Under the pieces are notes generated by a model, which was given only the letters and a program-made list of their open reading frames with translations, did no database searches and was not told the origin of the DNA. A stretch of 64,000 bases of DNA from Nautilus pompilius. Its lineage: Eukaryota > Mollusca > Cephalopoda > Nautilida > Nautilidae. This document shows, one piece after another, positions 30,488 through 56,750 of the stretch. How positions within the stretch are numbered: the stretch's first letter is position 1; each line of letters starts with the position of its first letter. The stretch is taken from NCBI GenBank assembly GCA_018389105.1, contig JACATO010002133.1:186001-250000 (forward strand), given 5' to 3'. The translations under genes and the position numbers were made by a program.

Positions 30488-30691
30488 CCCTCTCTCTCTA
30501 CTGACGTCGTATATCTCTAGTGACGTCATCGCTCTGTACTAGCGTCATATCTCTAGTGACGTCGTCGCTCTGTACTAGCGTCATATATCTCTAGTGACGT
30601 CATCGCTCTGTACTAGCGTCATATCTCTAGTGACGTCGTCTCTCTCTCTGTACTGACGTCGTATATCTCTAGTGACGTCGTCTCTCTCTCT

Positions 30692-30738
<47 letters not shown>

Positions 30739-30742
30739 GTAC
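30488..30742 (+). repeat. 36-38 bp tandem repeat with GACGTC core, ending in a CT microsatellite
   Basis: CTCTAG starts at 30515, 30551, 30589 and 30625, giving periods of 36, 38 and 36 bp. Each unit contains CTCTAGTGACGTCRTC and CTCTGTACTAGCGTCATA. After 30640 the array passes through CTGTACTGACGTCGTA into pure CT repeats ending at 30737. The core is shared with the 42.4-kb satellite and the 56-kb minisatellite. Confidence 0.85.
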
Positions 30743-31186
30743 AATAAAACACATTTACCAGAGACTTGAACAGAGAGTGTTTCTCGCAAAGATGTTCTAT
30801 GCATGTAGACCGTTCAGGACGTTCAACCAGGGGTCGGTAAAAATTAATTGCAATTAATTAATTTATTGCGAAGCTTTTGCAATTACAATTATTTATTGCA
30901 GAACTGTAAAAATTGCAATAATTTTTTTGCCACGCCTGGCCATTTTCCTCAGCGCAGTGGGCGTGTGCGTGAGAAATATGCGTAAACACGTTAAGCACGC
31001 TTGCACGCACAGTTCTGTTTTTCCACAATCCAGACAACGAGGTCAAGGTCACACGCAGTAGTGGGCGTGATCTCACAGCGGCTTATCATTGGTCGGGACA
31101 CTGCGGGCTCGTTGATTGGATCAGGAGTAATCCTAAGCACGTTGACTACTTGCAGGCTCACTAAAATTGATTTCCAATTCGCCATC

Positions 31187-32740
31187 ATGTCTAAGAAGCC
31201 AGAAACAATCATCAAACTTTTCTTCACCGAAGTTGATCCTGCGAACGATAAATGGCAGTGCAAGTGCAGAAAGCTGCTGGTTAGGCGGGAAAATACTGGG
31301 TGGACTAATCTACTCAATCATTTAAGAAGCCAACATCCAGATTTCAACAGCGATCAGCAGCCAAAGTCGTCCCTCGATCGTTTTCTAACTTCGGCAAACG
31401 TTTCGGAAAAGGGCTCCAACATCTACGACTGGCTGCAGTGGGTCTGCATTGATCTGATGCCATTTACCTTCGTGGAAAAGGAGACCGTCAGACGATACTC
31501 ATCCCTCAAACCAATTTCCACTATACATGGATTTGGTGACGAAGGAGGTCGAAAAGAAGATTGCGACTCTTCTGCCGTCTCAATTTGCCCTCATTTCGTT
31601 GGCGTGTTCGCATCCTTCTCTTCATCAAGCAACAATTCTTATGAGACAATTCTTCTGGCATTTTCTCCTCTTCTCAAAGAAACTGGATTCACCGCAAGTG
31701 ACCATTTTGATTTGCTGAAATTTGTGCTCAGTGTATATGACAAAACTTTTGATAATGTCGTCGCTCTTTGCGGTGACAACGCGGAGGTCAACAAGGCTTT
31801 GGCTAGAGCATGTAACTTGCCTCTGGTCGGATGTGCCTCCCACCGTTTCAATCTAGCAGTTATGGACTTCATCAAGCCCCACAAGGATTTGTTGGAGAAA
31901 GTAAACACTCTAATGGCTGGACTTAAAACTGTCCGGACTACTTCTGACGCATACAACGCTACGGCCTGTAATGAAAAACGATACCAGATGATCCAGTACA
32001 GCCAAAATGGTGGATCGCTATGATAAATTAAAGTCCCATCTTTCCCAACCTGATTTCGCCAACAATCATCAGTTGATGGACTTTTTTCCAACTGCAAGGG
32101 AGGCCTCACAACTTCAGACACACTTTGAGAAACTGAACTCTATCACACTGGCTCTTCAGCGAAATGACATAACTGTAGCTGAAGTGCGGTATCTGCTTGA
32201 TAAAACCATCGAACTATATCCGTGCATGCATAAATATTTGAGTCCCGATGCCGATATTGTTCAAGTTCCTCTGTTTGAAGTCTTTGGTAAAAATTCAAAA
32301 CCAAAAAAGCCGATGAGCTGACGCCAGAGGAGGAAGCATCTGTTACTAACTTAAAGCTGCCCGAATCATCGACCACCACAGAAGACAACGCTTTGAACGA
32401 TGATTTTGAAGATTTTGCTGCCTCCATGCTCAAAAGGCGTCGTCTTTCGATGGGAAAGCACAGCCGGGCCCGGTTCGCCGATACGTCTTTTATTTTGCCG
32501 ACTTCGAACTTAGTTGAGAGATTCTTCAGTTCGGCAGCAAATGCATTTGACGAATCCCGACAGCATCTTTCACCTGTAAATTTAGAAATGCAGCTTTTTT
32601 TACGCCATAACGACCGTCTTTGGGATCGTGAACTTGTTTCTCGTATCGTTTCATCCAATCCCACACCTAATTGCTTATTATATCTATTTTTTTCACATCC
32701 GGTCACTCGTTTTTTTCTACTTACTTTGGGGTGGAAATAA
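31187..32740 (+). pseudogene. hAT transposase with BED finger, frameshifted
   Basis: ATG at 31187 (MSKKPETIIKLFF), a BED-type finger (WQCKCRKLL...LLNHLRSQH), then a catalytic region with SDHFDLLKFVLSVYDKTF, ALCGDNAEVNKAL and LVGCASHRFNLAV. A pair of compensating frame changes (about 31525 and 31640) garbles the stretch where the first catalytic Asp should be. Another shift near 32000 moves to the frame with EVRYLLDKTIELYPC, and another in an A run near 32305 moves to the last frame, which holds the dimerisation domain (TSNLVERFFSSAANAF...LEMQLFLRHN). Not functional as it stands. Confidence 0.85.
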
Positions 32741-33015
32741 AAATTTTGAGACGGCAACCCAGAAAGTTTGGACGCTGTGTGGAACTGGGGAAACTAACAG
32801 GATCAAGTCAGGGCTACAGTTATAAAGGGGGTTCACACAAGCAGATGTGTGCTCAAGCTTGATAAAGGGGGAAATACCGCGCGCAGTCAAGGGGGAGCTT
32901 GCATGCGCGCGTCCAATGTCCAGCTGGTTTGGTTACATAGTCACATAAATTTCCGTTTTCTAGATAACTTAGCGGGATTTTTTAAAGATTGCTCGTAAAG
33001 CGGGATTTTACTAGC

Positions 33016-33102
33016 TCCGTTACTCTAACTCTTCATCGAGAGGACAGTTCCATGTCGGAAGTAAGGTATCTTTTCAACAAAACTATCGAATTATTTGCTT
33101 GT
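33016..33102 (+). pseudogene. Fragment of a second, related hAT transposase
   Basis: Encodes VTLTLHRE and EVRYLFNKTIELFAC, a diverged repeat of the element's own ITLALQRN and EVRYLLDKTIELYPC segment (32142-32225). It ends exactly where the small inverted-repeat element begins, which suggests a nested fossil rather than a tandem duplication. Confidence 0.6.
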
Positions 33103-33208
33103 GTAGCGAAAATTACTGGAAGAGAACTTGTTTGTATCTTAGCGCTAAAAATACAGTGGCTTTTTTTTGAGAATGCAAACAAGCTGCCTTCCAGTAATTT
33201 CCGCTACA
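33102..33208. mobile_element. Small MITE-like inverted-repeat element
   Basis: 107 bp starting TGTAGCGAAAATTACTGGAAG-like and ending in the inverted complement (20 of 21 bp); pairing continues imperfectly for about 15 more bp (ACTTGTTTG against GCTTGTTTG). It cannot code for protein and sits inside the hAT element. No clear target duplication was seen. Confidence 0.65.
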
Positions 33209-33416
33209 CTCTGTAGATGTGAAAATAATAATTTTTAAGAAAAAATATTGCATGTAAAGTTTCTGGAAAAATTGCAATTAATTGCAATTATTGATTGCAA
33301 CAAACGAAAATTAAAATTAATTTATTGCAACAAAGTCAGAATGCAATTAATTTATTGCAAAGGAAAAATTAAATTGCAAGCTCCAAAATTAATTTTTACC
33401 GACCCCTGCGTTCAAC

Positions 33417-36400
33417 TATTCCATAAGTATACTATTTTTTGGCGGACAAAAGATATCTCCACCCGTATAGACAGACGTACGAAGGATTAACGTATCATAT
33501 TTGGACGTAACAGCTCTACGGGGAAGGGAAATACCGATAGCAGATCGTGCGAAAGGTGGCGTGGCTTTCGAAAAGTAGGAAAATGGAATTTGGCGACCAT
33601 TTATTTTTTGTAGCAAACTTTAAATATGAAAGATTAGTCGTGGTTATTTTTGTCCGAGTTTAGAGTATATACATAATCTCTAAAGGTGGTCTTAAACCGG
33701 ATTTCACTAAGATTCTAAACTACGTTTTTTTTTTTTTCCAAAAAAAAGGAAGAAACCTAAATACAATTGAACTGTCGGAGGGGACATTAGAGCGTTCTAT
33801 GATCGTGATCTTCGGTGCGAGGAGATGGGAGCTGTGTAGGTTTCTGAACGATGCAGGGGGAGAGAACTCTAATCTGTAGACTGACTTGTCTAAAACGATA
33901 CGATTCACATCGGTATAGAACACGAAAACCGTCAGACGTCACGCTTACGGCACAAGGTATAATGGCGTTCCATTAAGCGCGCGCGTGAGCTGCCGAGCTC
34001 CCTGTAAACTCCCTAATAGCGACTTTGTGGCAGGAACGAGTCCGAAGATTATTAAGCACCCATTCGCCGGGCCATTTATGCTTCCGGAATAAACAAACGT
34101 CGTCTTTCTGACTCGGGTGGTGCCTGCCCGCCAAATCTCGCGCGCGCCGGCTAAAAATAGAACTGAAATCCGTCTAATGTCTGGTCGACCAGAAACGACG
34201 GGTAAACGAAGTAAAGAAACGTTTCAAAAAGCTGATTATTTGAAGCAGATGCCGGTCTTTGGCTAACGACCTACATATAACTAAATCAGGGCGGCCACTC
34301 TGCGATGGGATGAGCGAACCCCTTAATAATGCGGTCGGGTTCCCTTCGGCCTCGTTTTCGCGCAGAAACACGAGTTCGCATTCGTTTGTCCTCGGCCGAA
34401 TCTGAATTCAGGGTCGGAAAAGATCACTTCCGGCACTCGGCTCGACGACTGATGGTCCGGAAGCCGGATAAGATACAAGATCTTCTATGATAGATCGCGT
34501 ATTTTTAATTGCTTATTTATAGAGGTGATTTTCACGCTTGGCCGAGCCTTGGCACGTCCGGGCGTTGAAAACGCTTCAATGACTTAAGCAGTGCGCTAAG
34601 TCTCCACCACCAATTCTCTGGCTACAGAAAAATGGCATTTGTCTTCATATAGACGCGTAATCTTTGGGGTGAAACGGCAAACATCAGGAGATCATTATTT
34701 CTATGAATAGTCGCGCTGACGTCAGAAGTCACGTGTACTTCCGGAACTCAACAGATTCACAGTGTTACACCGTTAGTGCAAATGGCTCATACAGAGTCTC
34801 ACTTCTAGAAGTCTTAGAGCGCGTGGCCGTTATTCTTTCTTGCTTTTGTGCCGCACAGTTGTGCTCTGGTTCTTTCCTTGCTTCATTTGCATAAAGGATA
34901 CTCGCAACCTAGCGTAGACACTTTTAAGGGATTTTTACTAGGCAGCGTTTGTGGCTCTGACGCCTCCACCTACTTGAACACATATCTCTGTACCAGTGTT
35001 TGCAAAATCCATGAACAGATTTTTCAAGGCTTAGTAAGTTTCTATTCAACAGCACAGACAACACAAACACACGTATAAGATTCGACATCTGTATATTATT
35101 CTAAGCTTTGAAAAAACTTTACAAATTCTCTATTCGAAAAGACATCAACATCGATAAGTCAAAGTCTTCGATTTTTTTTTCCTAAAGAAGACACTAATGG
35201 ACGAGAATCGAGCTAGAAAGTCCCAAAGCCATTTAGGGGCAATAATCAGCCTGTCTTTGACAGTGATGGGGATGGGAAATCAGTGTTTAACGGGAGCAGG
35301 ATGTTTGATGGCTTGTTCTCTGATCACACTTCGTGGTGATGCTACCAGGAAAGTCTGGAGCATTTTTTTTAAAGGATAGAACTTCGATGACATATCTTCA
35401 ACATCTTGAACAGTCAGACTGTGGTGGAATCTTCCACTTTGAAGAAGTTGGGCTGCAGTGGACATTTCGCTGAAAGAACCTGGTGCCCGCGATCTCATGA
35501 ACCCTTGGGCTCGCGCTTCCTAATTCCTGCCATCATCAGACCGATGACTACTTGTGGACGGGAGGTTTGAAGGAACAGCATTTACCGAATCGCACCCAGT
35601 GAATCAAGTCATTATTGTCTATACTCTTGGCTTGCTGACTGAGACTTTTCTCTCGACGACTCGCAAGGTGGCAGGATGTTGCTAAGCCTTTAATATGCAG
35701 TCAAAGTACCATACAGTACAAAAATATTAGGATATCAAAAAATATTTATCTGCATTTACAGAAGATTACTAGTACACGTGAACTAAACTCATTAAAAATG
35801 AAGTATTTAGTATCCGAATCAAACAAGATCTGAAATTGTCTTCCATCTATCTACACTTTTAAAAATGGAAAAGTTATTATTTTCAACAAAAAGCAAAAGG
35901 TTAATGCCTACATTTCAGTAGTTCACCGGGCGGCCCACTCGTGATGTTAAACACCAGTCATGTTGCAAGACGTAAACAGGGGAGATAAACAGCAAGAAAT
36001 ACAGGTAGAAGAAGAAAAACAATTTTTTAACAGTTTGTCAGCGACAGTAAAGTCATTGCTCAAGTTAATAATGAAACCGATAAAGATTCCTTCTCTCTTT
36101 TTTTAGAACTGTTTGAAAAAAATAAGTAAATTTAAGTAAAAAAAATCTCTTTAATTTATTTGAATATTTTTTTTTTACAAATTGACAAAAATAAATCCAT
36201 ATAGCATTATTAAATTGACCAGGAGTTGTAAATCGGAAATATAGTTTCAGAGAAAGGCTCAGCAAGGAAAAACGATGCTTAGAAAGCTGACAGGGTGACA
36301 GACAATTAGCCGGAACGAAGGAAATTTTGGTGCCGGTGAACAAAACCTCGGTCCGTCCACGTGTTAACTATCCAAAATAAGCGCGGAATCTTTACTTGTA

Positions 36401-36477
36401 AGAAGATTATCACGATATTATGGGCAATGTATTAAAACATTCTAATGTGGTTCATGAACATCCGAGAGTAGAGATGA
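33417..36477. other. Intergenic DNA
   Basis: GC- and CpG-rich at about 33940-34600, AT-rich later. TGACGTCA (34718-34725) lies close to CACGTG (about 34731-34736) and an ETS-like CTTCCGG (about 34739-34745). No exons were recognised. Confidence 0.5.
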
Positions 36478-36735
36478 TTTACGTGGGTGGTTCAGTAGTA
36501 GACCACTTGGTCGGGTTCGATTTCCGGTCATGACCGGCCCGTTCTGGCGTTCTTCCCTGGAATCGTTTCTTCTCGCTCTTACACATCTGAAAAAAAAAGT
36601 TTTTAATAGCGTTTTTTGGGTAGAGACTCCGCGGGAAATTCTTGACTGGCTTGCATCCCTCCAATTGTACCCAGGTAACTCGCTTTGATCATCAAAGCTG
36701 AACCTCAAGCACACACCTCTTCCCTTGTAGCTTCC
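36478..36735 (+). repeat. tRNA-derived SINE (tRNA-Gly-like head)
   Basis: TGGTTCAGTAGTAG (A box) and GGGTTCGATTTCC (B box, about 36512-36524) resemble tRNA-Gly, but the anticodon arm between them is too short for a working tRNA. The body runs into unrelated sequence to about 36735. Open frames on the minus strand here are translations of the SINE. Confidence 0.6.
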
Positions 36736-39700
36736 TGCTGTGAGATGTCCTCAGACCTCAAAAGTCAAGACAGGGCTCTCACCAAGGAGATTTGTTTCTG
36801 AGGTTGATATTACTGCTTGTTTTGCTTTCTTCAGTCATCAACACTTTCAGCTGTTAGGAGATAATTAAGTGCACATCTAGACACGAGTTATGCCCGTATA
36901 ATTGTCAGCAGTTATAAATTAAATTAAATCCTGGCTACATACTGCTTTTAAAGTAACCTTCATAACGAAACAAGTCACTGTCTGAACAACAGCCAATCTG
37001 GTTAATAGGCGAACACAGTCACCGTCTGAGCGGTGCTTTCTCACAAGTCGACTTTTCTGTTCTCCACAGTAAACCAATCCGTCTCCGAGAAGCTCGGATT
37101 CCTCGACCGTTCAGTCTCCTGATATATCGGCTCTCGTGGACGCGACCCGTTGATCGCCGAGCACCTGCGAGTGCACGTGACTTCTCCGGAAGTTCGTCCG
37201 CGACACCATATAGCAGCAGCCGGTCGACTCCGGGGCGATCCTGCGCCTGCCACCTCTTCGTTTCGTAGTACTTCGACTGCGTCGATGGATAATGAAAAAT
37301 CCACGCGTATCTGAAACTGTCCTAAACTCAGTCTCGCGCGTGCAACTCGTTAGCCCCTTTTGGGATTTCTACCCCTCTCTGTCGACATTGAGAATGTCGG
37401 AAGAGGCGCATACATCCAGCACTGGAACGTCGGCTCACGTGATCACCACGTCACTGCCATGTAAAATGACATAAGCGCACCTGCTCCGCCAAAAAAAAAA
37501 AAACGCTATAACAAATTAAATATTTCTGTATATTTTGTGTTAAATTTATAAATTTTGCTAAGCTGACGATTGCAAGACTTGATAACAGAGAAAAAAAAAC
37601 ATTAACAGAATCATATATAAAGGAATAGAATGGTAGATGTGCGTCGCAGTCGTTAGTAGAACAGCGTGAGCTCGTTTGATAACCAAATCGATAGACATTT
37701 TTTACTCTGGTGTCCCATGTAGGCCAAGACCCAGCTCACAGTCAATAAGCAAACCTGAAGTGAAGGTCAGGTGAGGCCGAGACAGGCCGCCTGCTGCAAC
37801 CGTCCTGTCTGTCCGCACACTGCGCATGACGCAAACTCGGTCGTTCGAAGAGGTAAGGGCTACAATGTCAAAGCGTTCTGATGGAATATCCTCCGAGAGG
37901 AATGAAGAATTCGGAAGGTATCGAAGATTCAAAATATCAGACCTGTCAAGTCTGAAGTTCAAGTGTCTAAGAGGAAGATACCCAATTAGTCGCTTTCAAA
38001 GTAATTAAGGGTTTGAGTCCTAGTCGCGGACAAGCATTGGTGGGAAGAGCTGTTTCCAGTTTTTAAAACTAGGTGTCACGCCCATAAATTAGCTAAGATC
38101 CTACGCAGTGGTTAACCATTTCCAATCACAGGACTGTTAATGAGCAGAATAAACTACCAACAGCAGTGATAATATTAATTAACGAATCTTCAGGACCCAT
38201 TGCGTAAGCCATGATTGATGGCTCCTTGTAACTACTAATCTAAACAACATGGATAACTGTAAATGGACAGCTCCGGACTTTTCAAGGGACCTTGAACATT
38301 TTTGTCTGCTATAATTAAATTCGCAGCACAGCTTTCACTTTCCCACCATCTGTTAATCGGACTAGCAGCAAAACTTAGTAAATCGACTAAATTTGATATC
38401 TAAGTCGTGTGAGCCAGCCAGGTGATCTTTCAAACATCTCATTTTAATCAGTTCATTTACGACTATAGCTGCCATTAACACAAGCACACGACTGCTAGAA
38501 AATACTCATATTTAAAAAAGTTGATTTTGAACTTTCGTCATACAAAAATTTTCTCATCGAAATATCCGTTAGTTTAGATGAAGTATTCTCTTGGTACGTC
38601 CGCAATTATCGCCGCCATTGTATGCACAACAAAAGGATATATATATTATTTTTCCCTAAACACCAGTAACCTTTCAAAGATGACTTATCTATATACACGA
38701 TTTAAAAAATTAATAATCACATGAAACAACGGACCGGCCTCGCTTGTTTTTAGCACCGGTAAATGCTGGGTATTGGTCAATGATGTAAGCGACATGATAT
38801 TCAGTGAGATTATAGGTCTGCGCTGCTTTGTGATTCCGAGTTTTACTGTCTTCACGGTTGCTACTACGTTTTGCTGTATAATTACACCGGCCGTACAGAA
38901 GTCTAAGAAATTTTCTCCATTGTGGAAAGAAGGTTGCAAGGGAAAAGGAAGCCGGTCACAGTTTATACAGCCCCCACCCAAAGTTAAAAAAAAATTGTTC
39001 ATCTATAGGATTCTGAAGCTAATCAACACCTTAAAAGACAAAAAACGGCTGCTTCTGCAATTTCCTTATTGTACTTCCCGCCCAAGGGAGAAAATCCTTA
39101 CGCCCAGTCACTGCAGCCCTTGACTTTTTCCACTAAAATTCTTTAATAAATAATCTAAAAAATAGTTATAACAATAATAATCGTTAGTATGGTAGATGCT
39201 ATCTCGTTATAATCGTGATAAACGTGGGTAATTGATACGTGCAGGAAGGAGATGGCAGTCGGATCCCAAATCGGGCTACAACCAATTCAGTCTGTCACGT
39301 TATCTATAAACGTATTTAGTTTTACTCGACGTGCAGCTATAGTACCCCTGATTACTGAAAATAAACAGGTACATATTACCTGGTCTTTAATCTCGCATCG
39401 TACTCGAAAAAGGGTTTCTCGATTTTTTAATATAGTTTTCACTGACTCCCCCTTCACCGCCAAACACTAACTTTAACTCTAGTCCGCCATCTTAGCTTCA
39501 GTTCACGGAATCTCTCGTCCGCGTGGTCCGGCCGCACCGCAACCTCGTCAGATGGCGGCGGCGGCAGCTCGGGGTCTCCAGCTATCCGGGAAGAACTGAG
39601 CCGACTGGAGACAACAGAAACGAGCGATATATCCCATTAGTGCGAGAAGTAAAACGAAGCATCCCCTTCTCGTCTGTAATGGCGAGAAGGCCGTGCGCGT

Positions 39701-41235
39701 GACAATTTCTACAAGATGGCGTCCTTGGCCGGCGGAAATTCGACTAAAAATTAAAGCGGACGACTTTTTCAAAACGTTTAAGAGGTTCAGCGCTTTTCGA
39801 CACCCAACCCTCAATAGGCTGCAATATAATAGACATCATGCAAAACAGGCGAATTAACGCCGTTTGTTTTGTTGTTGTTGTTGTTTTTTTTCCTTCCACA
39901 TTTCCGAGAGTGAAATGATATCCGAGTCCTTCGGTTTTAATTGGACAATTCCCCATTGTTCCCTGAACCATTATCTCGATCAGAGCCGCACAAAACAACA
40001 AGAACAGTTCAGCCTCCCATCCTGTTGCGCAACTGATCGATCCCAATCCTCGCGTAAGATTCCGGTCCGTCCATAACTTTCTCCATCACTTTCACTTTCT
40101 TTCTTGTCGCGGGGTCAAATGGAAGGGGCAGCGTTCGGCGTAGCTTGGAAATTAGAAGCAGGGGGTCGCAGTAAATCAGCACGGCACAATGGGTTGGTCT
40201 GCCAAGAGCTTTTAGTTTACGAGACGCCACAGCTTTCCGCATTAACTGTCTGCGACGAAGCGAGCGCCGTCTGCTACGCAACAGAGGAAAAAACAACAAC
40301 AACAACAACAACACTTGAATAAAGCAACTGAATATCAGACGAACGATGTAAAATGTATCCGAAGGGCCGCCGACAACAAAAGAAGACTTTCTTCATATCA
40401 AACTACTTGCAAAACGGAAGACGCTTACGGCAAGATTAGTTTCTGAAAAGTTAGGTTTCATGTCGTTATATCAAAAGAATCTCAACAGTGGACATCACAG
40501 ACTCGCTCGGAAGCTGCGAGGAGCAGTCAGGCTGAAAACGTTCGGCTAATACGCCGTTTGTTTTTTTTTTCCACAGTTGCTGAAGTCGTTTAGATAACAA
40601 CACATCTGCAACCAGGCGGTCGAAACTCATTTAGCCGGTCGACTTCGCTGGATAACAAATAAGCGATCATCTGTTCGGAATCGATTACGTAAAGCGTTTG
40701 AAGTCCGGGCCGTGTGAAACTATTCATGAGCCACGCCGGACACCCATCACCGGCGTTGTCTTGACGACCGGCCCGGTTCGGAGCCCGAGTAATTTGGCTC
40801 AGAGCACTTTCTGAAATCGTTTCGGGGACACGCTGATTAGACCACGCTAGAACGTTTGTCGAAGGGGGGCGAGAAGAAGTCGAGGACGACAGCTTTTCCC
40901 CTGTTATTGATCCTGGAGTCGTCATATCGGCCCGTAGGGGAGACTTTGGCACCTATTTCGTTTTACAAAACAGGTAGGCAGAAGTTTACCGTCAAACATC
41001 AACCACATAAAAGTTGGGTAGTGGGGGGGGGTGGTTTTATAACGCACTGCCTGCCTGCCTGGTTGGGGTCGGCTCTGAATATTTTTAGAAAATGTAAAAA
41101 GACAAAAACATTACAAAATAAAGAAAATGGGGAATCGTCCTTTAAAGCGCGAGCGATACATTCACTGTGCATATAAATCGGTCAGGTGCGGCAAATTTTC
41201 TTTTACGTTTATAAACAATAATAATGACGTTTATG
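36736..41235. other. Intergenic DNA with GC-rich, promoter-like patches
   Basis: Contains CCGCCATCTT (39484-39493) and AAGATGGCG (39713-39721), both YY1-type motifs, within a GC-rich stretch (39480-39740) that could be a promoter. CAA/GTT runs lie at 39865-39885 and 40291-40315. Open frames show no known family, and no exon is assigned. Confidence 0.45.
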
Positions 41236-41252
41236 CTAATAATAATAATAAC

Positions 41253-41287
<35 letters not shown>

Positions 41288-41309
41288 CAACAACAACAAC
41301 AACAACAAC

Positions 41310-41340
<31 letters not shown>

Positions 41341-41381
41341 TAATAATAATAATAATAATATAATAATAATAATAATAATAA
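41236..41381. repeat. (AAT)n/(AAC)n compound microsatellite
   Basis: About 145 bp of AAT and AAC triplets with single-base interruptions. Asn- and Ile-rich open frames here are repeat translations. Confidence 0.95.
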
Positions 41382-42045: not shown

Positions 42046-42398
42046 TTTAAAATTCCAAAAAGAAAACAACATCTTTTTTAAGCATCCCTTAGTCAACTTA
42101 GAAGCATATCAAATACACTCTGTAAAAATGACTTAGTGACGGTATTAAATAATCTAGTGGGTTCGCTGTTTGGGTGGGGGGGGTGTTTAGCACCACGAGA
42201 GAGGCTGTTTATTTCTTCTGTTTGTGTGTAAACGAAAACAGTTATTTCAGCTTATTGCTAAAGTATTCAGTAAATTTGCGCAATTTCCGAGTGCATTTCA
42301 TTCAGATATCTAATCATGTTTATACATAACATCAAATATAGGAGCAGTTTCGTCGACATCATAGGCGAGAGAGCCGAAACTACTTGTTACAGTACTAG

Positions 42399-45300
42399 TG
42401 TTTACCTATAGATGAGGCTGTAATGGACGTCATATGTTTACGTGTAGATGAGGCTGTAATGGACGTCATATGTTTACGTGTAGATGAGGCTGTAATCGAC
42501 GTCATATGTTTACGGATAGATGAGGCTGTAATCGACGTCATATGTTTACCTATAGATGAGGCTGTAATCGACGTCATATGTTTACGGATAGATGAGGCTG
42601 TAATCGACGTCATTTGTTTACGTGTAGATGAGGCTATAATCGACGTCATTTGTTTACCTATAGATGAGGCTATAATCGACGTCATTTGTTTACGTTTAGA
42701 TAAGGCTGTAATGGACGTCATATGTTTACGTGTAGATGAGGCTGTAATCGACGTCATATGTTTACCTATAGATAAGGCTATAATCGACGTCATATGTTTA
42801 CCTATAGATGAGGCTGTAATCGACGTCATATGTTTACGTGTAGATAAGGCTGTAATGGACGTCATTTGTTTACCTATAGATGAGGCTGTAATGGACGTCA
42901 TATGTTTAGCTATAGATGAGGCTATAATCGACGTCATTTGTTTACGTTTAGATAAGGCTGTAATGGACGTCATATGTTTAGCTATAGATGAGGCTATAAT
43001 CGACGTCATTTGTTTACGTTTAGATAAGGCTGTAATGGACGTCATATGTTTACCTATAGATAAGGCTATAATCGACGTCATATGTTTACCTATAGATGAG
43101 GCTGTAATCGACGTCATATGTTTACCTATAGATGAGGCTGTAATGGACGTCATATGTTTACCTATAGATAAGGCTATAATCGACGTCATATGTTTACCTA
43201 TAGATGAGACTGTAATCGACGTCATATGTTTACGTGTAGATAAGGCTGTAATGGACGTCATTTGTTTACCTATAGATGAGGCTGTAATGGACGTCATATG
43301 TTTAGCTATAGATGAGGCTATAATCGACGTCATTTGTTTACGTTTAGATAAGGCTGTAATGGACGTCATTTGTTTACCTATAGATGAGGCTATAATCGAC
43401 GTCATTTGTTTACGTGTAGATAAGGCTGTAATGGACGTCATTTGTTTACCTATAGATGAGGCTATAATCGACGTCATATGTTTACCTATAGATGAGACTG
43501 TAATCGACGTCATATGTTACGTGTAGATAAGGCTGTAATGGACGTCATTTGTTTACCTATAGATGAGGCTGTAATGGACGTCATATGTTTAGCTATAGAT
43601 GAGGCTATAATCGACGTCATTTGTTTACGTGTAGATAAGGCTGTAATGGACGTCATTTGTTTACCTATAGATGAGGCTATAATCGACGTCATATGTTTAC
43701 CTATAGATGAGACTGTAATCGACGTCATATGTTTACGTGTAGATAAGGCTGTAATGGACGTCATTTGTTTACCTATAGATGAGGCTGTAATGGACGTCAT
43801 ATGTTTAGCTATAGATGAGGCTATAATCGACGTCATTTGTTTACGTGTAGATAAGGCTGTAATGGACGTCATTTGTTTACCTATAGATGAGGCTATAATC
43901 GACGTCATATGTTACCTATAGATGAGACTGTAATCGACGTCATATGTTTACGTGTAGATAAGGCTGTAATGGACGTCATTTGTTTACCTATAGATGAGGC
44001 TGTAATGGACGTCATATGTTTAGCTATAGATGAGGCTATAATCGACGTCATTTGTTTACGTGTAGATAAGGCTGTAATGGACGTCATTTGTTTACCTATA
44101 GATGAGGCTATAATCGACGTCATATGTTTACCTATAGATGAGACTGTAATCGACGTCATATGTTTACGTGTAGATAAGGCTGTAATGGACGTCATTTGTT
44201 TACCTATAGATGAGGCTGTAATGGACGTCATATGTTTAGCTATAGATGAGGCTATAATCGACGTCATTTGTTTACGTGTAGATAAGGCTGTAATGGACGT
44301 CATTTGTTTACCTATAGATGAGGCTATAATCGACGTCATATGTTTACCTATAGATGAGACTGTAATCGACGTCATATGTTTACGTGTAGATAAGGCTGTA
44401 ATGGACGTCATTTGTTTACCTATAGATGAGGCTGTAATGGACGTCATATGTTTAGCTATAGATGAGGCTATAATCGACGTCATTTGTTTACGGATAGATG
44501 AGGCTATAATCGACGTCATATGTTTACCTATAGATGAGGCTGTAATGGACGTCATATGTTTACCTATAGATGAGGCTATATCGACGTCATTTGTTTACGG
44601 ATAGATGAGGCTATAATCGACGTCATTTGTTTACGGATAGATGAGGCTGTAATGGACGTCATATGTTTACCTATAGATGAGGCTGTATGGACGTCATATG
44701 TTTACGGATAGGTGAGGCTATAATGGACGTCATTTGTTTACCTATAGATGAGGCTGTAATGGACGTCATATGTTTAGCTATAGATGACGCTATAATCGAC
44801 GTCATTTGTTTACGGATAGATGAGGCTATAATCGACGTCATATGTTTACCTATAGATGAGGCTGTAATGGACGTCATTTGTTTACGGATAGATGAGGCTA
44901 TAATCGACGTCATTTGTTTACGGATAGATGAGGCTGTAATGGACGTCATATGTTTACCTATAGATGAGGCTGTATGGACGTCATATGTTTACGGATAGGT
45001 GAGGCTATAATCGACATCATTTGTTTACGGATAGATGAGGCTATAATCGACGTCATTTGTTTACGGATAGATGAGGCTATAATCGACGTCATTTGTTTAC
45101 GGATAGATGAAGCTATAATCGACGTCATATGTTTACCTGTAGATGAGCCTATAATCGACGTCATATGTTTACCTATAGATGAGGCTATAATCGACGTCAT
45201 TTGTTTACGTGTAGATGAGGCTGTAATGGACGTCATATGTTTACCTATAGATGAGGCTATAATCGACGTCATATGTTTACCTATAGAGGCTGTAATGGAC

Positions 45301-45604
45301 GTCATATGTTTACCTATAGATGAGGCTATAATCGACGTCATTTGTTTACGGATAGATGAGGCTATAATCGACGTCATTTGTTTACGGATAGATGAGGCTA
45401 TAATCGACGTCATATGTTTACCTGTAGATGAGCCTATAATCGACGTCATATGTTTACCTATAGATGAGGCTATAATCGACGTCATATGTTTACGTGTAGA
45501 TGAGGCTGTAATGGACGTCATATGTTTACCTATAGATGAGGCTGTAATGGACGTCATATGTTTAGCTGTAGATGAGGCTATAATCGAGGTCATATATTTA
45601 CGTA
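42399..45604 (+). repeat. 36-bp satellite array 1 (about 89 units)
   Basis: The monomer reads TGTTTACCTATAGATGAGG followed by CTGTAATCGACGTCATA, 36 bp in all. Variable sites are CCTA/CGTG/CGGA/GCTA after TTTA, GAT/AAG, CTG/CTA, ATC/ATGG and CATATG/CATTTG. Because 36 is divisible by 3 and no frame-ending codon occurs in the unit, long open frames run along both strands (12-residue repeats); the breaks fall at single-base deletions, for example near 43516 and 43911. A 216-bp higher-order repeat of six monomers is visible at about 43490-44460. Confidence 0.97.
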
Positions 45605-47689: not shown

Positions 47690-48260
47690 TGTAAACAAAA
47701 ATGAATTAGAGGTAGTAGATAGGGGCTGTGCCCTTCCCTGATTGCAATACATTGCCCACAACAGCCTTGCATGCTGCTTATAACCCTATCAACGAGACAG
47801 TGGGAAATAAAGGCCATTGTCTGTCAGAGAAGATTGCAGTTCTGGGAGGGAGTTGGAGGGTGGAAAACATGGCTTCTAGGATATCCCAAACATTCTTAAT
47901 ATTGTTTAGTTCAGGAGGATGCGCTGATTATATCACAGAGTAATGGTTTGGTCTTAAAGATACTGGTCGATTAGACGTGCTCTATGTGGACGAACTTTAT
48001 CGTCCATGAAAATGCAGTTGTCTCCAATTGCACCTGCGTAAATCTGACATAGGGATCCAGAATCTCATCCCTATATCTCATTTCTCTCAAGGTATCTCCC
48101 TGAAACGCACAGGTCTGTCTGTACGCCCACCCAATCAAATTCCTGCCCAGATGATCACATCTCTACCACCTTAGTGATATGTGTTCCATGTTCTCTCCAG
48201 ATGAGTACGTGCTCGTAGACAAAGTGAAAGCTAAACCTTGATCCACCACTAAAAAAAACA
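47690..48260 (-). pseudogene. Tc1-like transposase relic
   Basis: The minus strand reads, with frame changes, LIWREHGTHI (about 48190-48215), WAGI and LREMRYRDEILDPYVRF (48060-48150), FMDDKVRPHRARLIDQYL (the second catalytic Asp region, about 47959-48012), HPPELNNIKNVWDIL (compare SPDLNPIEHVWDML, about 47880-47930) and LVDRVISSMQGCCGQCIAIREGH (about 47735-47800). The order matches Tc1 transposases. The first catalytic motif is degenerate (SGGSRF for DESRF). TGGAAACCAGTGTA at about 48640-48653 resembles a Tc1-type terminus, but its partner was not found. Confidence 0.75.
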
Positions 48261-48990
48261 TATATCCAGTCACATGGTGTCCAAGCGACATGTTCATAGC
48301 ACCAGTCAAACTGCCCCTATCTCTACTTATTTTAACCATTTTCCCACCTGAATCTGACTGTTCGGCCTCTATTCAACTACTAACTTACCATCTTAGAGAA
48401 GTTTACAAACGACTAAGACAACCCATGTGTAATATTTTCCTTTAAATCATATTTCTAACAGAGGCATAATGAATATGAACATAAACAAATTTTAATGTTT
48501 TTATACCGAAGTTAATTTACTGAAACTTATTTATACATTTAGTTGATGAAAGTTTTGGTATATGTGAAAGAGTCTGTTTTGAACATTTGGTGAATAAAAC
48601 TAACCATTTTGGAAATTATTTTTTGTTTTTGTCTAATTTTTGGAAACCAGTGTATTATTTGACATTATTTTCGCTACGGCGGCACTCTGTCCTTTTTAAT
48701 GTTATACTCAGTCAGTGATCTAAATCAATAAACCTGAGATTTTTATGACATGGTATACTATTGTCATTTACTGGGGTTTGGTTTATATGTGACAATATAT
48801 AAACTGTTATGACATCACGAGCATCTTCAAGGTAATCATTGGAATTATATTAGTTCCAAACTTTTAAAATTTATTCATAAGTTTTGATAATCGCCGGTAA
48901 TATTTTATGATTTATAAACGATGCATTATGGGAAACCTGGGTAATTGTCACAGAGGCAATTTGTTATGACATCAGTAATTCTTAATTTAA
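48261..48990. other. AT-rich intergenic DNA
   Basis: Probably includes the 5' part and terminus of the Tc1-like relic (to about 48655). Nothing else was recognised. Confidence 0.5.
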
Positions 48991-49962
48991 CCTATACATG
49001 AGGCTATAATCGACATCATATGTTTACTATAGATTAGGCTATAATCGACGGCATATGTTTAGCTATAGATGAGGCTATAATCGACGTCATATGTTTACGT
49101 ACAGATGAGGCTATAATCGACATCATGTTTACGTATAGATGAGGCTATAATCGAAATCATATGTTTAGCTATAGATGAGGCTGTAATCGACATCATGTTT
49201 ACGTATAGATGAGGCTATAATCGACGCCATATGTTTAGCTATAGATGCGGCTATAATGGACATCATGTTTACGTATAGATGAGGCTATAATCGACGCCAT
49301 ATGTTTGGCTATAGATGAGGCTATAATCGACATCATGTTTACGTATAGATGAGGCTATAATCGACGCCATATGTTTAGCTATAGATGAGGCTATAATCGA
49401 CGTCATATGTTTAGCTATAGATGAGGCTATAATCGACGCCATATGTTTACGGATAAATGAGGCTATAATCGACGCCATATGTTTAGCTATAGATGGGGCT
49501 ATAATGGACATCATGTTTACGTATAGATGAGGCTATAATCGACGCCATGTTTGGCTATAGATGAGGCTATAATCGACGCCATATGTTTAGCTATAGATGA
49601 GGCTATAATCGACGCCATATGTTTAGCTATAGATGAGGCTATAATGGACATCATGTTTACGTATAGATGAGGCTATAATCGACGCCATATGTTTACGGAT
49701 AAATGAGGCTATAATCGACGCCATATGTTTAGCTATAGATGAGGCTATAATCGACGCCATATGTTTAGCTATAGATGGGGCTATAATGGACATCATGTTT
49801 ACGTATAGATGAGGCTATAATCGACGCCATGTTTGGCTATAGATGAGGCTATAATCGACGCCATATGTTTAGCTATAGATGAGGCTATAATCGACGCCAT
49901 ATGTTTGGCTATAGATGAGGCTATAATCGACGCCATATGTTTAGCTATAGATGAGGCTATAA
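48991..49962 (+). repeat. 36-bp satellite array 2 (about 27 units)
   Basis: Same family and orientation as the 42.4-kb array, mostly TTTAGCTATAGATGAGG followed by CTATAATCGACGCCATA. The GACGTC core is largely changed to GACGCC or GACATC, and 34-bp units with GACATCATGTTTACG alternate with 36-bp ones. It looks like an older or independently homogenised relative of array 1. Confidence 0.95.
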
Positions 49963-51864
49963 TTTATTTTTCGATTATAGACATATTTCTACGTTTAATA
50001 AAGATTATCCATTTCTCTATACCTAAATATACAAAGACTTTTTTTTTGAAAATCAGAAAAATCCCATAGTTATTTAAATTCACACTATCAACGAGCTATA
50101 AATACGTATTAATTACCTCGCTGTTACCCGCGCAGAGCTATTGTTTTTCGCTCAAATAATGACGCGTGTGTAATTGAAATCTCTTTTCCCCTGGTAGATA
50201 GCACGGGCACGTTAGTGTTTATCGAACCTGTCTAAAAATAAAACTGCTGAATCTCATCTTTCCTCTACTATCGAATTGAATAAGTAATAAAAAGCTGTCT
50301 GTGTTGGCTACGACGCTGTAGATGGCGTAGCGATGATTGCAGCAACAGAAGCTAAGATTTAACTCGAGCAAATGTGAAAAAACAAAACAACCCCTTTTTT
50401 GATAGTGACGGCCATTTTGCTAAAGAAAAACAAAAACAAAACCTAAAGTATTACGCAGTTGGAATAGCGGAAAGCTTGAGTTGTTTTAGTTGTCAGCTGA
50501 CCACAGGCAGATTACCACTAATTATCGGGCGCTATACCTCCAGGCAAATCCATTAGCAGAGTTCTTAGATTTTAGTAAATAAATGAATACCTATTTTGTG
50601 ATGTTTCTTTCAATCATTTAAATTTAATTATTTATATAATAAACTAAATGATGATAAAATGTAATTATTATCCCTAACTTATGTGAAAGGAATTGTGGTT
50701 ACTGGATTCACATAACTGTTGAGTTAACGTTTTTCTGATTTGTTCTGGATGTCGTCGAAAAGCTAAAGAACTCTGGCGTGCGATGTTTTGCCTTTAGGGG
50801 TTCCGTGTTGTATCTCGACGAATGAACGCTGTCCGCTCCGCCATCTTCCTTACACAGATTTCTTCGGACGCTCCGGACATCACCGAACAGCCCCGACGCG
50901 CCATCCAACGACGAACTGATCTGAAATGTCTGTAGGTAACATCTGGAACTTTATCTTTCTTCTATAGTATAGCGAAATATATTTACCATTCTTTCCTCCT
51001 ATAAAGCAACTACACCTAAAAAGAAGGAAAGGAACGACGATTTATGCAAACGGGGGGGGGCGCTAATAGTTAGAGATGGAAATGATGCGGATGCCATTTA
51101 AATCAGTTATCTTTAATGTCATTCGACAGGGGAACGCCCATCTCCGCAAAATTGGATGCGTGCACCAGTCTAAGGGATCCACTAATTAATTAACTTCGTA
51201 TGCTTATATTAATTGCACAAACAGAAACCGGCAACATCGAGGTACAAAAATAAAGTTCCATTTGGCGAGTTTCACTTTCCTGTCTGGAAACACGACTTTG
51301 ATTGCGGTTCAGGTTGGGAACACGGATCACGTTACCAATGCTTTTCGTCGACAATCTCCTTGGCTTTGTTGTTGGTGCTGGGTTTTTCCTAAATTTATAC
51401 ATCTATTTATTGTTATTTGAATGCTGTTTGCAATATATATATAGTATCAAAATCTCCAGTACCAACATCATCACCACCACCAACAACAACAAGATCTGGG
51501 GGTGAAAATAGCTATCTCCTGCGCGAGTTACGAGTTGTGGGAACAGCAACAACAACAAAAAGGAAAAGCCGTCCCCGGCCTAGACGCAGTATCATCTTAT
51601 TCTGGCTGCTCTCCGTGCACTGTACGACCTGTCGGGATGCCTGTTATTCGAGAGGCTGTGAAGAGCTGTACTCGTCATTGGTGCTGCGTCGCTTACATTC
51701 AATTTTACCCTTTATGTTGTATTTTGTTTCCAGCCCCCCCCATCCGGACCGACGCGCGGGTACGTGGAAGCGATACACCTAAAAACAGTAAAAAGGGAAA
51801 GCGACGTCTCCATCTAAGGGGCAGATAACTCAGAGCTTTAGAAAAAAAAAACAAAAAAACAAAA
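49963..51864. other. Intergenic DNA
   Basis: AT-rich at first, GC-richer after 50700. CGCCATCTTCC (50839-50849) combines YY1- and ETS-like motifs, and a G run lies at 51053-51060. No gene was recognised. Confidence 0.5.
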
Positions 51865-54344
51865 CGTCTGGTCAGGGCCGGCTGAAGGTACCGGCAACTC
51901 GACGCTAGGGGGCGCCACGTCATGTGTTTGGTAACTTCCAAATACAAAGGGGAAAATGTGAAAATAATAAATGAAATAAAATGAAATAGAAAAACAAAAT
52001 GTGAAAATTCCTTGAGTGGAGTCAAATTTGCGAGAATCTGATTATTATATTAATTCTTTCTGTTGTGGTGATCAAACTGTGAAAACCAATTGACAAGGGA
52101 AATTCCCACGACCGTCAGCTAGTCCGGTGAGATCAGTACCACTCCGGGGCCTCAGTGTTGACCGAAAAGTCGCACAAATCGGCCAGAAACCCGCGGAAGG
52201 GACGGAGCCAAGAAAGTGGCCGGTAGGAATGTGGAGGGTGTGTCACATGGGTGAGTCACGTGTAAATTTGTGGGACTGTGCCGGCCTTCTGTTCAAGATA
52301 TGGCGGTGCCAGTTTAGCTGTTACACGAAAAAATATGATTTTTAGAAATTCTAGACGTATTACTCGCATCACACGAAAGAGCTCAAAATTCGCACAAAAA
52401 GTTGCACCCCGCCAAAGCCTTTGTCTGCCTTAGAAATTTGTCGAAGGTGAGCTTATTTTAAAATGTTGCACATTTTTGTGCCAAAAAGTAACGGAATTGG
52501 CAACTGTGCAACACAGGTGTGAGAAGCAAAGGAACGGGTCTTGATGCTCACCTGTGACCCAAGGTGGGCAGCTCAGGACCCGGGTATAGTGATCGATATA
52601 ACACTTTGTGTATCTGTAAGTTTATTTGCAAAGATTAACGATGTTTTATTGAACTTTGAATTATATAAGATGTTTAATAATGTATTCTAATTTTAATCTA
52701 TTTATATTTTACATTATTAGCCAATGTTTATCTACAGACCCGGAGGGAGAAACAAATTCGTGGACGGGTATTAAATTTTCTCGGGGGGGGTCATTCTGCA
52801 GGCCCTCTTGCATCATAGCCCCCCCCCGACAACTTCCTGTCACTCTGCCACCCTGATAGAAACACGGACGATACACGCTGGCGACAGGGGCCGGAACTCG
52901 AACTGTTATCGCAGTAGGACTGACGTAATCGAGTCGCGCTCCATTGGGGCCGGCGGCTAGAAGACTCGGACCACGACCGCTGTAAGGACTGGACAGTGGC
53001 ACACTAGCCAGCTCGGCTCTAGGCCAACTTGGACCCCGTGCAGGTGGCTATAGGCCCGATGAGAGACTTACGAAGGCGGGCCGGGCCGCTTTGCATAAAA
53101 TGAAAGGGTTAATGGGTTGAGGGCGGGCACATAAGTTGTCTTTCTGTTTCTTGCGGGTGTGGCCAAGAAACACCCAAAGCTATCAAGTTTCTTCAACCCT
53201 AACTCTAACAGTGGGAACAATGCAGGCTCAACTTCTTCAGCTGCATCTATCTCTCCAGATTTGTCATCTACTGTTTGTGAAGTCAATCCAACCGAAGATG
53301 CTGTACCTTCTCAAGGAAAGAACGATTGCACGCATGAACCAAAACATCGCGATCACATTTTCAGTGATGTCGAAGACTTGGGCAATAATGTCATAGTGGG
53401 GAATTCTGAGAATTTTAAAAGTAAATTTGAAAACTCCACCTAAGAAATGTCAACTACTATGATCCAGCACACTGGCTGGACGAATTATCAGTGGCGGAAA
53501 CTGATCACATCACTATGAACGGGCCGCATCCTATTAATAAACAGTACAGTTTTCCAAAAGATGCAAATAAACGTAGTTTCTCTGCGTCAATGATACATAG
53601 GAAAATTAATAATGGCGAAAGTTTTCTTAGAAGGTGGCTTGATTATTCAGGGAGCACCAATAAAATTTATCGCTTTTGCTGCAAAATTTTTGACTTCTCA
53701 AATAAGTCATTTTAAGGAAAATCTGGAATTAATGACTGGAATCACGCTCTTGAATATTTGCAATCACATGGAAATTCCGTACATCACCTGGAATGTCTTA
53801 AGAAGTGTTTTGAGACATCACTGCGATTGCAGACTAATAAAAACTATTGGTAAGAAGATGCAGTGGGAAAAGAACGAGAGCACTGGTTTAAAGTTTTGGA
53901 ACGTTTAATAAGCATCACTCTGTATTTAGCTGAACACAATTTGGCTTTCAGAGGAACTTCAGACACATTATTTACACCGCACATTGAGAATATTTTACGT
54001 CTTGTTGAGCTACTTGGAAAATCTGATTTGACAATGAACGAACATTTACGTCGCGTTGTGTCTAAAGAAATTCACATTCACTATTGTGGAAAAAATGTTC
54101 AGAATGAATTAATCAATTTGTTGGGAAATGCTGTTCAGGGAAATATATTAAAAGGAGCTAAAGAAGCCGAATATTTCAGCCTTATCTTAGATTGTACTCC
54201 AGATATAAGTCATGTGGAACAGCTTTTACTTACAATACGATTTTTAGATGTAGAAGACATTTCGATAAAGGAAGATTTTGTCAGCTATAAACCAGTTATA
54301 GATACTACAGGAAAAGGATTATATGAAAGTATACTTGATTTTCT

Positions 54345-54392
54345 GAGAGAGAGAGAGAGAGAGATGGAGAGAGAGAGAGAGAGAGATGAGGG

Positions 54393-54455
<63 letters not shown>

Positions 54456-54473
54456 TGGAGAGAGAGATGGAGA

Positions 54474-54511
<38 letters not shown>
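54345..54511 (+). repeat. GA microsatellite inside the transposase frame
   Basis: About 167 bp of GA repeats with occasional GGA/ATG interruptions replaces the short stretch between DFL and IAAEVR/IAEVR of the transposase. The Arg-Glu open frame is a translation of the repeat. Confidence 0.95.
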
Positions 54512-54711
54512 CTTCCATAGCTGCAGAGGTCAGGGCTATGATAATGGTTCAAATATGAAAGGAAAGAATAAAGGCGTTCAGGCGCGGATCATGAAGGGAA
54601 ATCCACGGGCGTTTTATATGCCATCTGGATGTCACAGCCTGAACTTAGTGGTTGGTGATAGCGCAACAAGTTGCCTGAAATCCACTCCATTTTTTGGTAC
54701 TGTCCAGCGCT

Positions 54712-54730
54712 TATATATATATATATATAT
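54712..54730. repeat. Short TA microsatellite in the transposase
   Basis: A TA run between FGTVQRLY and SASPGRWHVLKKH; probably a local expansion that helps to break the frame. Confidence 0.85.
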
Positions 54731-56035
54731 TGGTTTCTGCCTCTCCTGGGCGATGGCATGTACTGAAAAAACATGTTAAATGTCTCACTGCAAAACCTTT
54801 ATGCGATACTACATGGGAATGCAGATTAGAATGTGTCAAAGCCATTAAATATGAAATTATAGGAATCCGAGAAGCTTTTTATGAACTTTCAGAAATGTCT
54901 GCTTCTGATCCTGAAATCCGACTCTTGTATTACAAGTAGAAGATTACAGTTTTCTAGTGATGATGAATGTCTGGTGTGATGTCTTAGGCAGACTAAATGT
55001 TGTCAGCAAAACTATGCAGAGTGCCTCTGTGGAACTGTCCACAGCAGTTCCATTAATGAATAGTGTCACTAATTACTTAATTGATTATCGTGCAAATGGA
55101 TATGAGAGGGCACTAGCATCAGCTCCAGAATTGGATGTAGAGCCCATTTTTGAAAGTAAAAGGATAAGCCGAAAAAGAAGGCAGTCTGAATATGAGTGCA
55201 TTGACGAGGTTCCAAATACAGATGACCCAGAAAGAAGATTAAAAAATCGTGTGTTCAGTGTAATACTCGACACAGCTATTAATTCTTTACCAGACAGATT
55301 TGAACAGTTACAGAGCTTCAATAATACATGGGGATTTTTAAGTAACATAAAAGACTTGCCAGATAAAAATAAACTGAGATTAGCATGTCAAGGTTAGGAG
55401 GATACCTTAAGGTATCCAAAAAACTAGTGATATTAACGGGTGTAATCTCTTGACTGAACTAGATATCGCGGAAGAATTATTTCCTGGAGATGTAAAGCTT
55501 CCGATAGAAGCCGTTAGATTCATCAACGGTAATAAGTTACAGGATGTCATGCCAAATCTGTGGGCTACATTAAAAATAATGCTCACGATACCTATAACTG
55601 TGGCCACGGGAGAGAGAAGCTTTAGACATGTTTTCGGTCGTTCCTGACACAAGACAGATTAAATTCTTTGGCAACTTTGTCAATAGAAAACGATCTTGAA
55701 GAAAAGATAGATATAGAAAGTGCTATGAAAACATTTGTGATCTAAAGTCGAGAAAAACTGTTTTAGCTGGATAATGTATGCTTTTCAACATCTGTTCTTT
55801 TGTTCATATTCTTTAATTTATTAGGAGAAAATTCGCGACATCGACAGTTTTTATCATGAACTTGACGGAATATAGTATGCTTCTCAATTTGTTTGCTACG
55901 GTCTCTGTGGCTTTCACTAGAGGCCATAGTACAGATATCTAGCAGATCAACGGCACCTTTCGGACCCTCTCTCACCTATTCCTCCTCCATTCGGTGTTTG
56001 TTTGTAACAAAAATGAGTGGAGGTCATTGCCACGG

Positions 56036-56706
56036 TCTCTCTCTCTCTCTCTCTCTCTGTACTGACGTCAACTCTCTCTCTCTCTCTCTCCATCTCTCTC
56101 TGTACTGACGTCATCTCTCTCTCTCTCTGTACTGACGTCACTTCTCTCTCTGTACTGATCACCTCTCTCTCTCTCTCTCTCTCCATCTCTCTCTGTACTG
56201 ACGTCATCTCTCTCTCTCTCTCTCTGTACTAACGTCACTTCTCTCTCTCTCTGTACTGACGTCACCTCTCTCTCTCTCTCCATCTCTCTCTGTACTGACG
56301 TCATCTCTCTCTTCTCTCTGTACTGACGTCACTTCTCTCTCTGTACTGACGTCACTCTCTCTCTCTCTCTGTACTGACGTCATCTCCTCTCTCTCTCTCT
56401 CTCTCTCTCTGTACTAACGTCACTTCTCTCTCTCTCTGTACTAACGTCCCTCTCTCTCTCTCTCTCTCCATCTCTCTCTGTACTGACGTCATCTCTCTCT
56501 CTCTCTGTACTGACGTCACCTCTCTCTCTCCATCTTTCTCTGTACTGACGTCATCTCTCTCTCTCTGTACTGACTCACCTCTCTCTCTCTCTCCATCTCT
56601 CTCTGTACTGACGTCATCTCTCTCTCTCTGTACTGACATCACCTCTCTCTCTCTCTCCATCTCTCTCTGTACTGACGTCATCTCTCTCTCTCTCTGTACT
56701 GACGTC

Positions 56707-56750
<44 letters not shown>
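56036..56750 (+). repeat. CT-rich minisatellite with CTGTACTGACGTCA core (about 20 copies)
   Basis: CTGTACTGACGTCA, most often ending in the full CRE palindrome TGACGTCA, recurs roughly every 24-42 bp, separated by pure CT runs, some with a CCAT interruption. Variants include CTGTACTAACGTCA and a few with deletions or C-to-T changes. It sits in the 3' non-coding part of the 5-kb hAT element. Ser/Leu and Arg/Glu open frames here are repeat translations. Confidence 0.95.

Follow-up and report, generated by a model that had tools for sequence, protein, structure and literature searches.

Reviews of how short tandem repeats move to new loci lean on transposons as carriers (PubMed Central (PMC) article PMC6947457). 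The closest precedent that we found for the repeats described below is the Rsp-like satellite of the Drosophila simulans complex, which has expanded recently and has entered new euchromatic places within 1.688 arrays (PMC7919458). Our subject is a 64,000-nucleotide stretch of the genome of Nautilus pompilius (C2031:186001-250000, referred to below as the window), in which minisatellite arrays that we call the CT family lie beside arrays of a 36-bp satellite. The CT family is like the Rsp-like satellite in that a repeat appears to have been inserted into existing arrays of another tandem repeat, and it differs from it in that units of ~15 bp plus CT lie in a plain CT dinucleotide microsatellite, the loci are estimated to number in the thousands and the animal is unrelated. 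The primary paper on the Rsp-like satellite entering 1.688 arrays is said to be that of Sproul et al. 2020.

Dispersed arrays that share a core have a precedent in the human hypervariable minisatellites (Jeffreys 1985, cited in PMC3880010). These and the CT family are alike in being dispersed and in having a short common core in differing surroundings, and the statement in an earlier note on this DNA that no described satellite family is defined in this way was thus too strong. The core shared by the human hypervariable minisatellites of Jeffreys 1985 is reportedly G-rich and chi-like; the CT family differs from them in that its spacer is a CT microsatellite and that an empty CT site could be read. 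Dispersed satellite repeats of molluscs have abrupt junctions to anonymous DNA and either anonymous or Helitron flanks (PMC5139131), and here the CT family has the abrupt junctions in common with them but differs in that both of its junctions are CT tracts. For the 36-bp satellite the parallels are repeats with inverted-repeat sources. Tandem repeats in the terminal inverted repeats of a foldback element of Drosophila virilis (Tetris / TIR-220) are building blocks of satellite arrays (PMC4079207), the unit being ~220 bp there and 33-37 bp here, where no autonomous partner was identified. Satellites derived from miniature inverted-repeat transposable elements (MITEs) have also been described, namely Xstir of Xenopus, whose units come from a terminal inverted repeat, and HindIII of bivalves (PMC9659126), and the 36-bp satellite resembles these in having units that appear to be drawn from a MITE-like element. 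No publication on this CT-core repeat was found in the searches made, which covered the open-licence PMC literature and were judged mostly by titles and listings.

The CT minisatellite family

The results given below make it likely that two repeat families stand side by side in the window, a CT minisatellite that has been copied locally into existing CT microsatellites and a 36-bp satellite that has grown from an arm of a MITE-like element. The earlier note had named three tandem arrays, at 30.5, 42.4 and 56 kb, that share a GACGTC core, and Tandem Repeats Finder (TRF) reports an array at each of the three positions (Table 1), with the words quoted from them present; the shared core is far above chance, as GACGTCAT occurs 105 times in the window compared with a mean of 1.39 and a maximum of 5 in 100 shuffles. 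A second array of the 36-bp satellite, beyond these three, lies at 49 kb. A single satellite family for all three arrays was considered and is ruled out by the unit alignments and the MITE evidence. The spacers, which had been said to differ completely, do so for the 36-bp satellite only, whereas the 30.5 and 56 kb arrays have common CT spacers and a terminal (CT)n.

The CT-family core is 15 bp long, (CT)nGTACTGACGTCAT(AT)CTCTC, and is set in CT microsatellites. In the genome assembly searched (727.6 Mb in 2,558 contigs) CTGTACTGACGTCAT has 53,496 sites with at most one mismatch (26,840 forward and 26,656 reverse) compared with 157 for the reversed pattern, and at all 23 of the loci that lie behind 100 listed places among these sites the core is inside a CT tract, mostly in tandem, so that the first of the two outcomes which the earlier note had named as refuting it is not borne out. 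Nine of the 23 loci are on contig C1 (1.05 Mb), seven on C2 (0.87 Mb), six on C5 (0.70 Mb) and one on a contig of 15.7 kb. Extrapolation from 22 loci in 2.61 Mb gives a genome total of very roughly 6,000 CT-family loci, a figure that may be high because the density is taken from contigs with hits only, and contigs C3 and C4 (length unknown) show none. The units are tandem and of roughly 10-100 bp and the arrays are short, as in minisatellites, and a short core is found at many unlinked loci with unrelated flanks, as in a core-sharing family; a minority of the loci have one or two cores only (L045, with a single core, and L048). The 80 kb of control sequence, which was taken from eight chosen places at round positions and is not a random draw, contains six CT runs of eight or more units and no core within two mismatches. 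The 30.5 and 56 kb arrays align with a score of 43 and the 30.5 kb array aligns with the genome's common unit with a score of 70, and in both tests all 2000 shuffles scored lower, which supports common descent of these two arrays. The suggestion of a common seed amplified three times is thus supported for the 30.5 and 56 kb arrays, and is unproven for the 36-bp satellite, which has another source.

Comparison of the flanks of the 23 loci (up to 900 bp per side) with 253 kb of sequence at E 1e-5 gave as the only other matches one of 29 bp and one of 70 bp, in an output that does not include the flank matches of L065. Around 131 exact 12-mers, C and T make up 92% of the upstream 10 nt and 86% of the downstream 12 nt, values that are partly by construction, as the arrays were delimited partly by their C/T content; the array boundaries overshoot by some bases in the flank comparison, in the composition and unit tallies and in the word-sharing test (below). 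Joined flanks of the 56 kb array and of 19 loci (all of the 23 except L036, L037, L052 and L055) were also used as queries, and 18 of the 19 loci matched their own place only, an absence of further places that is incomplete, as it covers 40 of the 92 candidates; for one flank of L046 there is a second place at 98%, and the array is present there too. The flanks of the 30.5 kb array (240 bp on the left and ~80 bp on the right) matched only themselves in the search for an empty site, and the end of a repeated element begins ~80-90 bp to the right of this array. A frame with a zf-BED domain (Pfam; 30995-32017), which probably belongs to another transposon, is also found on that side.

The 56 kb array sits in a repeated transposon-like element; ten contigs match both the transposase part of this element and the flanks of the array, ~1.2-1.6 kb apart. 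At least seventeen other places match the 56 kb flanks, and none of the 17 read has GACGTC; the longest TC run among them is 11 units. At the site of the array 15 of the 17 have a short TC tract or a remnant of one, the segment being lost in the other two (L088 and L089), and the window copy keeps both edges of the original TC tract. Since all 17 copies are without the core, the TC microsatellite would have come first and the core-bearing array later in the window copy, unless each of the others has lost its array. At this one site a tandem repeat would thus have been present before entry, in the manner of the Rsp-like satellite. The same element contains a coreless (GA)n tract in its transposase-like frame (Table 1), where 12 related copies have a short GA stretch only. 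It was considered as an inserted core-bearing unit and rejected, as these 12 relatives show growth in place from a few GA units, a clear instance of microsatellite growth inside a transposon. The growth of this tract without a core indicates that slippage alone yields plain tracts and that the core must come from elsewhere.

Loci that lie tens to hundreds of kilobases apart have CT-family variants in common, whichever strand they are on. The CTCCTGACRTCA variant is present at eight of the nine C1 loci and at none of the 14 elsewhere (Fisher 1.8e-5), and word sharing among the 23 loci is 0.314 within contigs and 0.255 between them (13 of 5000 permutations as high). A two-core unit has 267 sites genome-wide and none in the control. 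The 100 of these sites that are listed, all exact, fall in at least 48 loci and form at least 29 locus pairs within 100 kb (0.31 expected); among the sites listed, 69 pairs lie within 500 kb (1.55 expected), 28 of the 69 on opposite strands. A search with the 30.5 kb variant, which was planned beforehand as a test of the clustering found with the two-core unit, gave 96 sites in 28 loci (all sites used), with 7 pairs within 100 kb (0.10 expected) and 14 within 500 kb (0.52 expected), of which 8 are on opposite strands; 4 of the 28 loci are on the window's own contig, two per strand, the three outside the window being at about 316, 582 and 593 kb.

We infer that CT tracts receive copies of core-bearing units from other CT tracts in their vicinity. 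In such a mechanism the CT on both sides of a unit would provide the homology, and gene conversion, template switching during repair and re-entry of small circles would be candidate routes; units that had entered would then expand by slippage and unequal exchange. Units would move a limited distance, would enter unrelated DNA and could do so on either strand. Homology between CT tracts would explain the entry, the kept CT edges and the strand indifference, since a unit would adopt the orientation of the tract that it entered. The unit is common to many loci with no carrier seen, one site is found with and without the core, and variants spread locally and without regard to strand, features that make homology-driven copying between microsatellites testable within one genome. 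We suggest more tentatively, as less likely than not, that the CT core could be a copy-and-paste repeat without a transposase, in which core-bearing CT microsatellites convert nearby plain ones in either orientation, so that a sequence that codes for nothing has colonised thousands of loci (roughly 6,000, extrapolated). On this view breaks might be favoured where the palindrome TGACGTCA adjoins a polypurine-polypyrimidine tract, and the palindrome would in that way further its own dispersal.

Several points weigh against local copying between CT tracts, as follows: A single empty site was read, so that "CT tract first" is shown once, the 18 loci with self-matches only giving none, and the second place of L046 also bears the array and is hence no further empty site. 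The donor locus of the 56 kb array was not identified. Loss of an ancestral array in 17 copies is the alternative to gain at the empty site, and must be discounted. The window copy is without a 12-bp segment directly left of the CT array (56032-56033) that is kept in 15 of the 17 related copies, and these 12 bp may have been lost when the array was introduced, in which case their absence could point to insertion by end joining. The expected pair counts are simple expectations that assume uniform placement, the control against other core loci compares only 9 loci with 14, and among the 23 loci a greater distance along the contig is not accompanied by lower similarity (Spearman -0.11, P 0.37). 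A single assembly agrees equally with all three of the candidate routes of copying. Finally, a CT-family array (L087) has the core also between GT repeats, so CT may not be strictly required for entry.

The 36-bp satellite and the resemblance of the two cores

The core of the 36-bp satellite, CTGTAATCGACGTCAT, has 4,196 sites with at most one mismatch compared with 111 in the control. Nineteen stretches around listed sites consist of eight tandem arrays (of 33, 36 or 37 bp, or multiples), seven inverted pairs of a 77-nt arm (L018, L022, L023, L028, L030, L031 and L033) and four stretches with one recognised arm. The arrays repeat the inner part of the 77-nt arm, and the arm tip lies outside the satellite unit; with up to two mismatches the tip has 1,225 sites and none in the control, one of them beside the array on contig C7 and one beside that on C126. 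Arms are recognised at the edges of the window arrays (Table 1), and at the far end of the 42.4 kb array a right arm is not recognisable (right-edge alignment score only 8). No clear target-site duplication was seen by eye in eight MITE-like copies and the 60.4 kb copy in the window. The monomer thus lies within the inverted arms of a short non-coding element, and that element is dispersed as single copies, as in MITE-derived satellites. From the inverted arms around single copies, the arm-tip count and the arms at the array edges, we read the 42.4 and 49.0 kb arrays as having grown in tandem from the inner portion of a single arm in a palindromic MITE-like element. The 42.4 kb array has 87 GACGTC, the preceding base being C in 49 and G in 38, and in the 49 kb array GACGTC is nearly gone (2 GACGTC, 15 CGACGCCA and 8 GACATCA).

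The cores of the two families match at 16 of 18 positions with one gap (CTGTAATCGACGTCATAT and CTGTACT-GACGTCATAT), where the earlier note drew an alignment over about 15 bp. One common seed for both families, the CT core having been captured long ago from a MITE-like arm (or the reverse) and separately amplified with CT spacers, is possible although we lean against it. Besides the match itself, GACGTCATAT is identical in both families, and shuffles against the common CT unit give P values of 0.0005 with the MITE-like arm and 0.001 with the 42 kb unit, the latter reaching 0/2000 when paired with the 56 kb unit; support is weak or absent, however, from the 30.5 kb unit (0.065 when paired with the 42 kb unit) and from the 49 kb unit (0.10 with the common CT unit and 0.23 with the 56 kb unit). 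All of these are single-pair values, uncorrected for the choice of the pair by eye among several arrays, so they are optimistic and the true surprise is smaller. A bridging 20-mer, moreover, has six sites in 728 Mb, none of them exact (a single mixed CT/GT array holds three, CT arrays two and a MITE array the last), which gives no convincing intermediates, and no MITE arm is present at any of the 23 CT-family loci. The likeness of the cores would be due either to chance or to a remote common origin, and a common origin is unproven. For one of the three arrays, the 36-bp satellite with its origin in a MITE-like arm, the outcome is thus largely that of unrelated cores, which the earlier note had named as the result that would count against it.

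Mobile element, binding site and carriage

The main alternative to local copying between CT tracts, which we think unlikely, is insertion into CT microsatellites by the core unit itself, acting as a tiny mobile element or being the truncated end of a (TC)n-targeting retrotransposon. Long interspersed nuclear elements that target (TC)n do exist (Kibi and Koshi), and entry into an existing TC tract at the 56 kb site and the single-core locus L045 both agree with such an element. The flanks of the 23 loci, however, share nothing beyond CT and the core and do not reveal a (TC)n retrotransposon, and the presence of the two-core unit at 6 of 25 loci and of a CCAT-prefixed unit at 4 of 25 indicates that pieces larger than one core travel (L065 and L066, which were fetched by another pattern, are left out of these unit tallies and of the conservation values below, and L067-L070 were not tallied). 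The spread is also local and no longer element was seen, although local hopping is known of some transposons, which softens the former point.

The CT-family core often includes TGACGTCA, which we take to be a perfect cAMP response element (CRE), and it is improbable, in our estimate, that selection has preserved the core as a CREB/ATF-type binding site during the turnover of the spacers. This idea has in its favour that TGACGTCA occurs 197 times in 25 CT arrays and that the core is conserved at 77.0-99.5% per position (locus-weighted, from 294 core copies at 25 loci). The perfect palindrome that the earlier note reported as frequent is confined to the CT family (15 TGACGTCA at 56 kb and 2 at 30.5 kb) and is absent from the 42.4 and 49 kb arrays (0 in each, none of the 87 GACGTC at 42.4 kb being part of TGACGTCA), and with GACGTC itself nearly lost at 49 kb TGACGTCA is not kept across arrays. 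The two CpG positions, C10 (0.914) and G11 (0.939), are less conserved than A9 (0.982) and T12 (0.979) and about as variable as C6 (0.924) and C13 (0.922), and their changes in the CT-family core copies are mostly transitions (C-to-T in 15 of 22 and G-to-A in 22 of 29). As the CpG is no better kept than other positions, it shows no special protection, and neither of its bases is uniquely lost; this is not proof against selection. Other cores have taken over in some arrays (GTACTAGCGTC at 30.5 kb and TGAAGTC in L052), and variants follow genomic neighbourhood. These findings speak against the earlier proposal that a protein-bound core is kept during array turnover, and nothing in the sequence comparisons appears to call for selection on the putative CRE/ATF site or a protein bound to it; what looks like a transcription-factor site in unit after unit of an array can arise as a by-product of the way in which repeats turn over and spread.

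Carriage of the arrays inside larger transposons or by segmental duplication is very improbable, as the position of the 56 kb array within a repeated element and the array-bearing second place of L046 are outweighed by the 17 of 17 other copies of the 56 kb element that have no core, by the 18 of 19 loci whose joined flanks matched their own place only (among the 40 of 92 candidates scored) and by the frequent location of variant-sharing loci on opposite strands, and for the loci tested a longer transposon as carrier is ruled out by unshared flanks and the coreless copies of the 56 kb element.

Coordinates and other features of the window

Table 1. Repeat arrays, MITE-like arms and related features, with positions in the window.
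Feature	Position	Strand	Evidence
CT-family minisatellite array, GTACTAGCGTCATATCTCTAGTGACGTC-unit variant, (CT)n tail at its end	30490..30737	+	TRF, alignment, core counts
Left MITE-like arm with an incomplete tip, continuous with the 36-bp array	42381..42439	+	Alignment 75%
36-bp satellite, 89 copies, read as tandem expansion of MITE-like arm (CTGTAATSGACGTCAT)	42399..45601	+	TRF; left edge aligned to arm
Left MITE-like arm running into the 49 kb array	48961..49025	+	Alignment 83%
Second array of the 36-bp satellite, most cores CGACGCCA or GACATCA and no longer palindromic	48992..49963	+	TRF, core counts
Inverted remnant of a right MITE-like arm where the 49 kb array ends	49971..50007	-	Local alignment score 19
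Transposase-like frames (hAT-type by sequence reading) of the element bearing the 56 kb array	53854..55394	+	DUF4371, E 3.9e-05, 24.1 bits, below gathering score 32.1
(GA)n tract, coreless, in the element bearing the 56 kb array	54345..54511	+	Comparison with related copies
CT-family minisatellite array, 15 GTACTGACGTC cores, within repeated element with hAT-type transposase remnants	56036..56749	+	TRF, core counts, 17 other element copies
Further MITE-like copy with a clear right arm (60480-60546) and a weak left arm	60408..60546	.	Scores 41 and 18

Other features of the window are as follows: A GC-rich 41-bp minisatellite (57258-57521, 6.4 copies, 96% matches; TRF) lies half a kilobase to the right of the CT array at 56 kb, and a degenerate (TG)n tract of ~780 bp is found at 61874-62656 (TRF). 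Frames with RRM_1 domains (Pfam; 7524-8876) look like exons of a poly(A)-binding protein gene, a name given by sequence reading. Elsewhere in the assembly, COX1-like nuclear fragments read in the invertebrate code look mollusc-like and have, by sequence reading, the gene order nad2-cox1-cox2. The 117 COX1-like matches across contigs (for example L071-L074), many of them with the same few segments, suggest a multiplied family of nuclear mitochondrial sequences.

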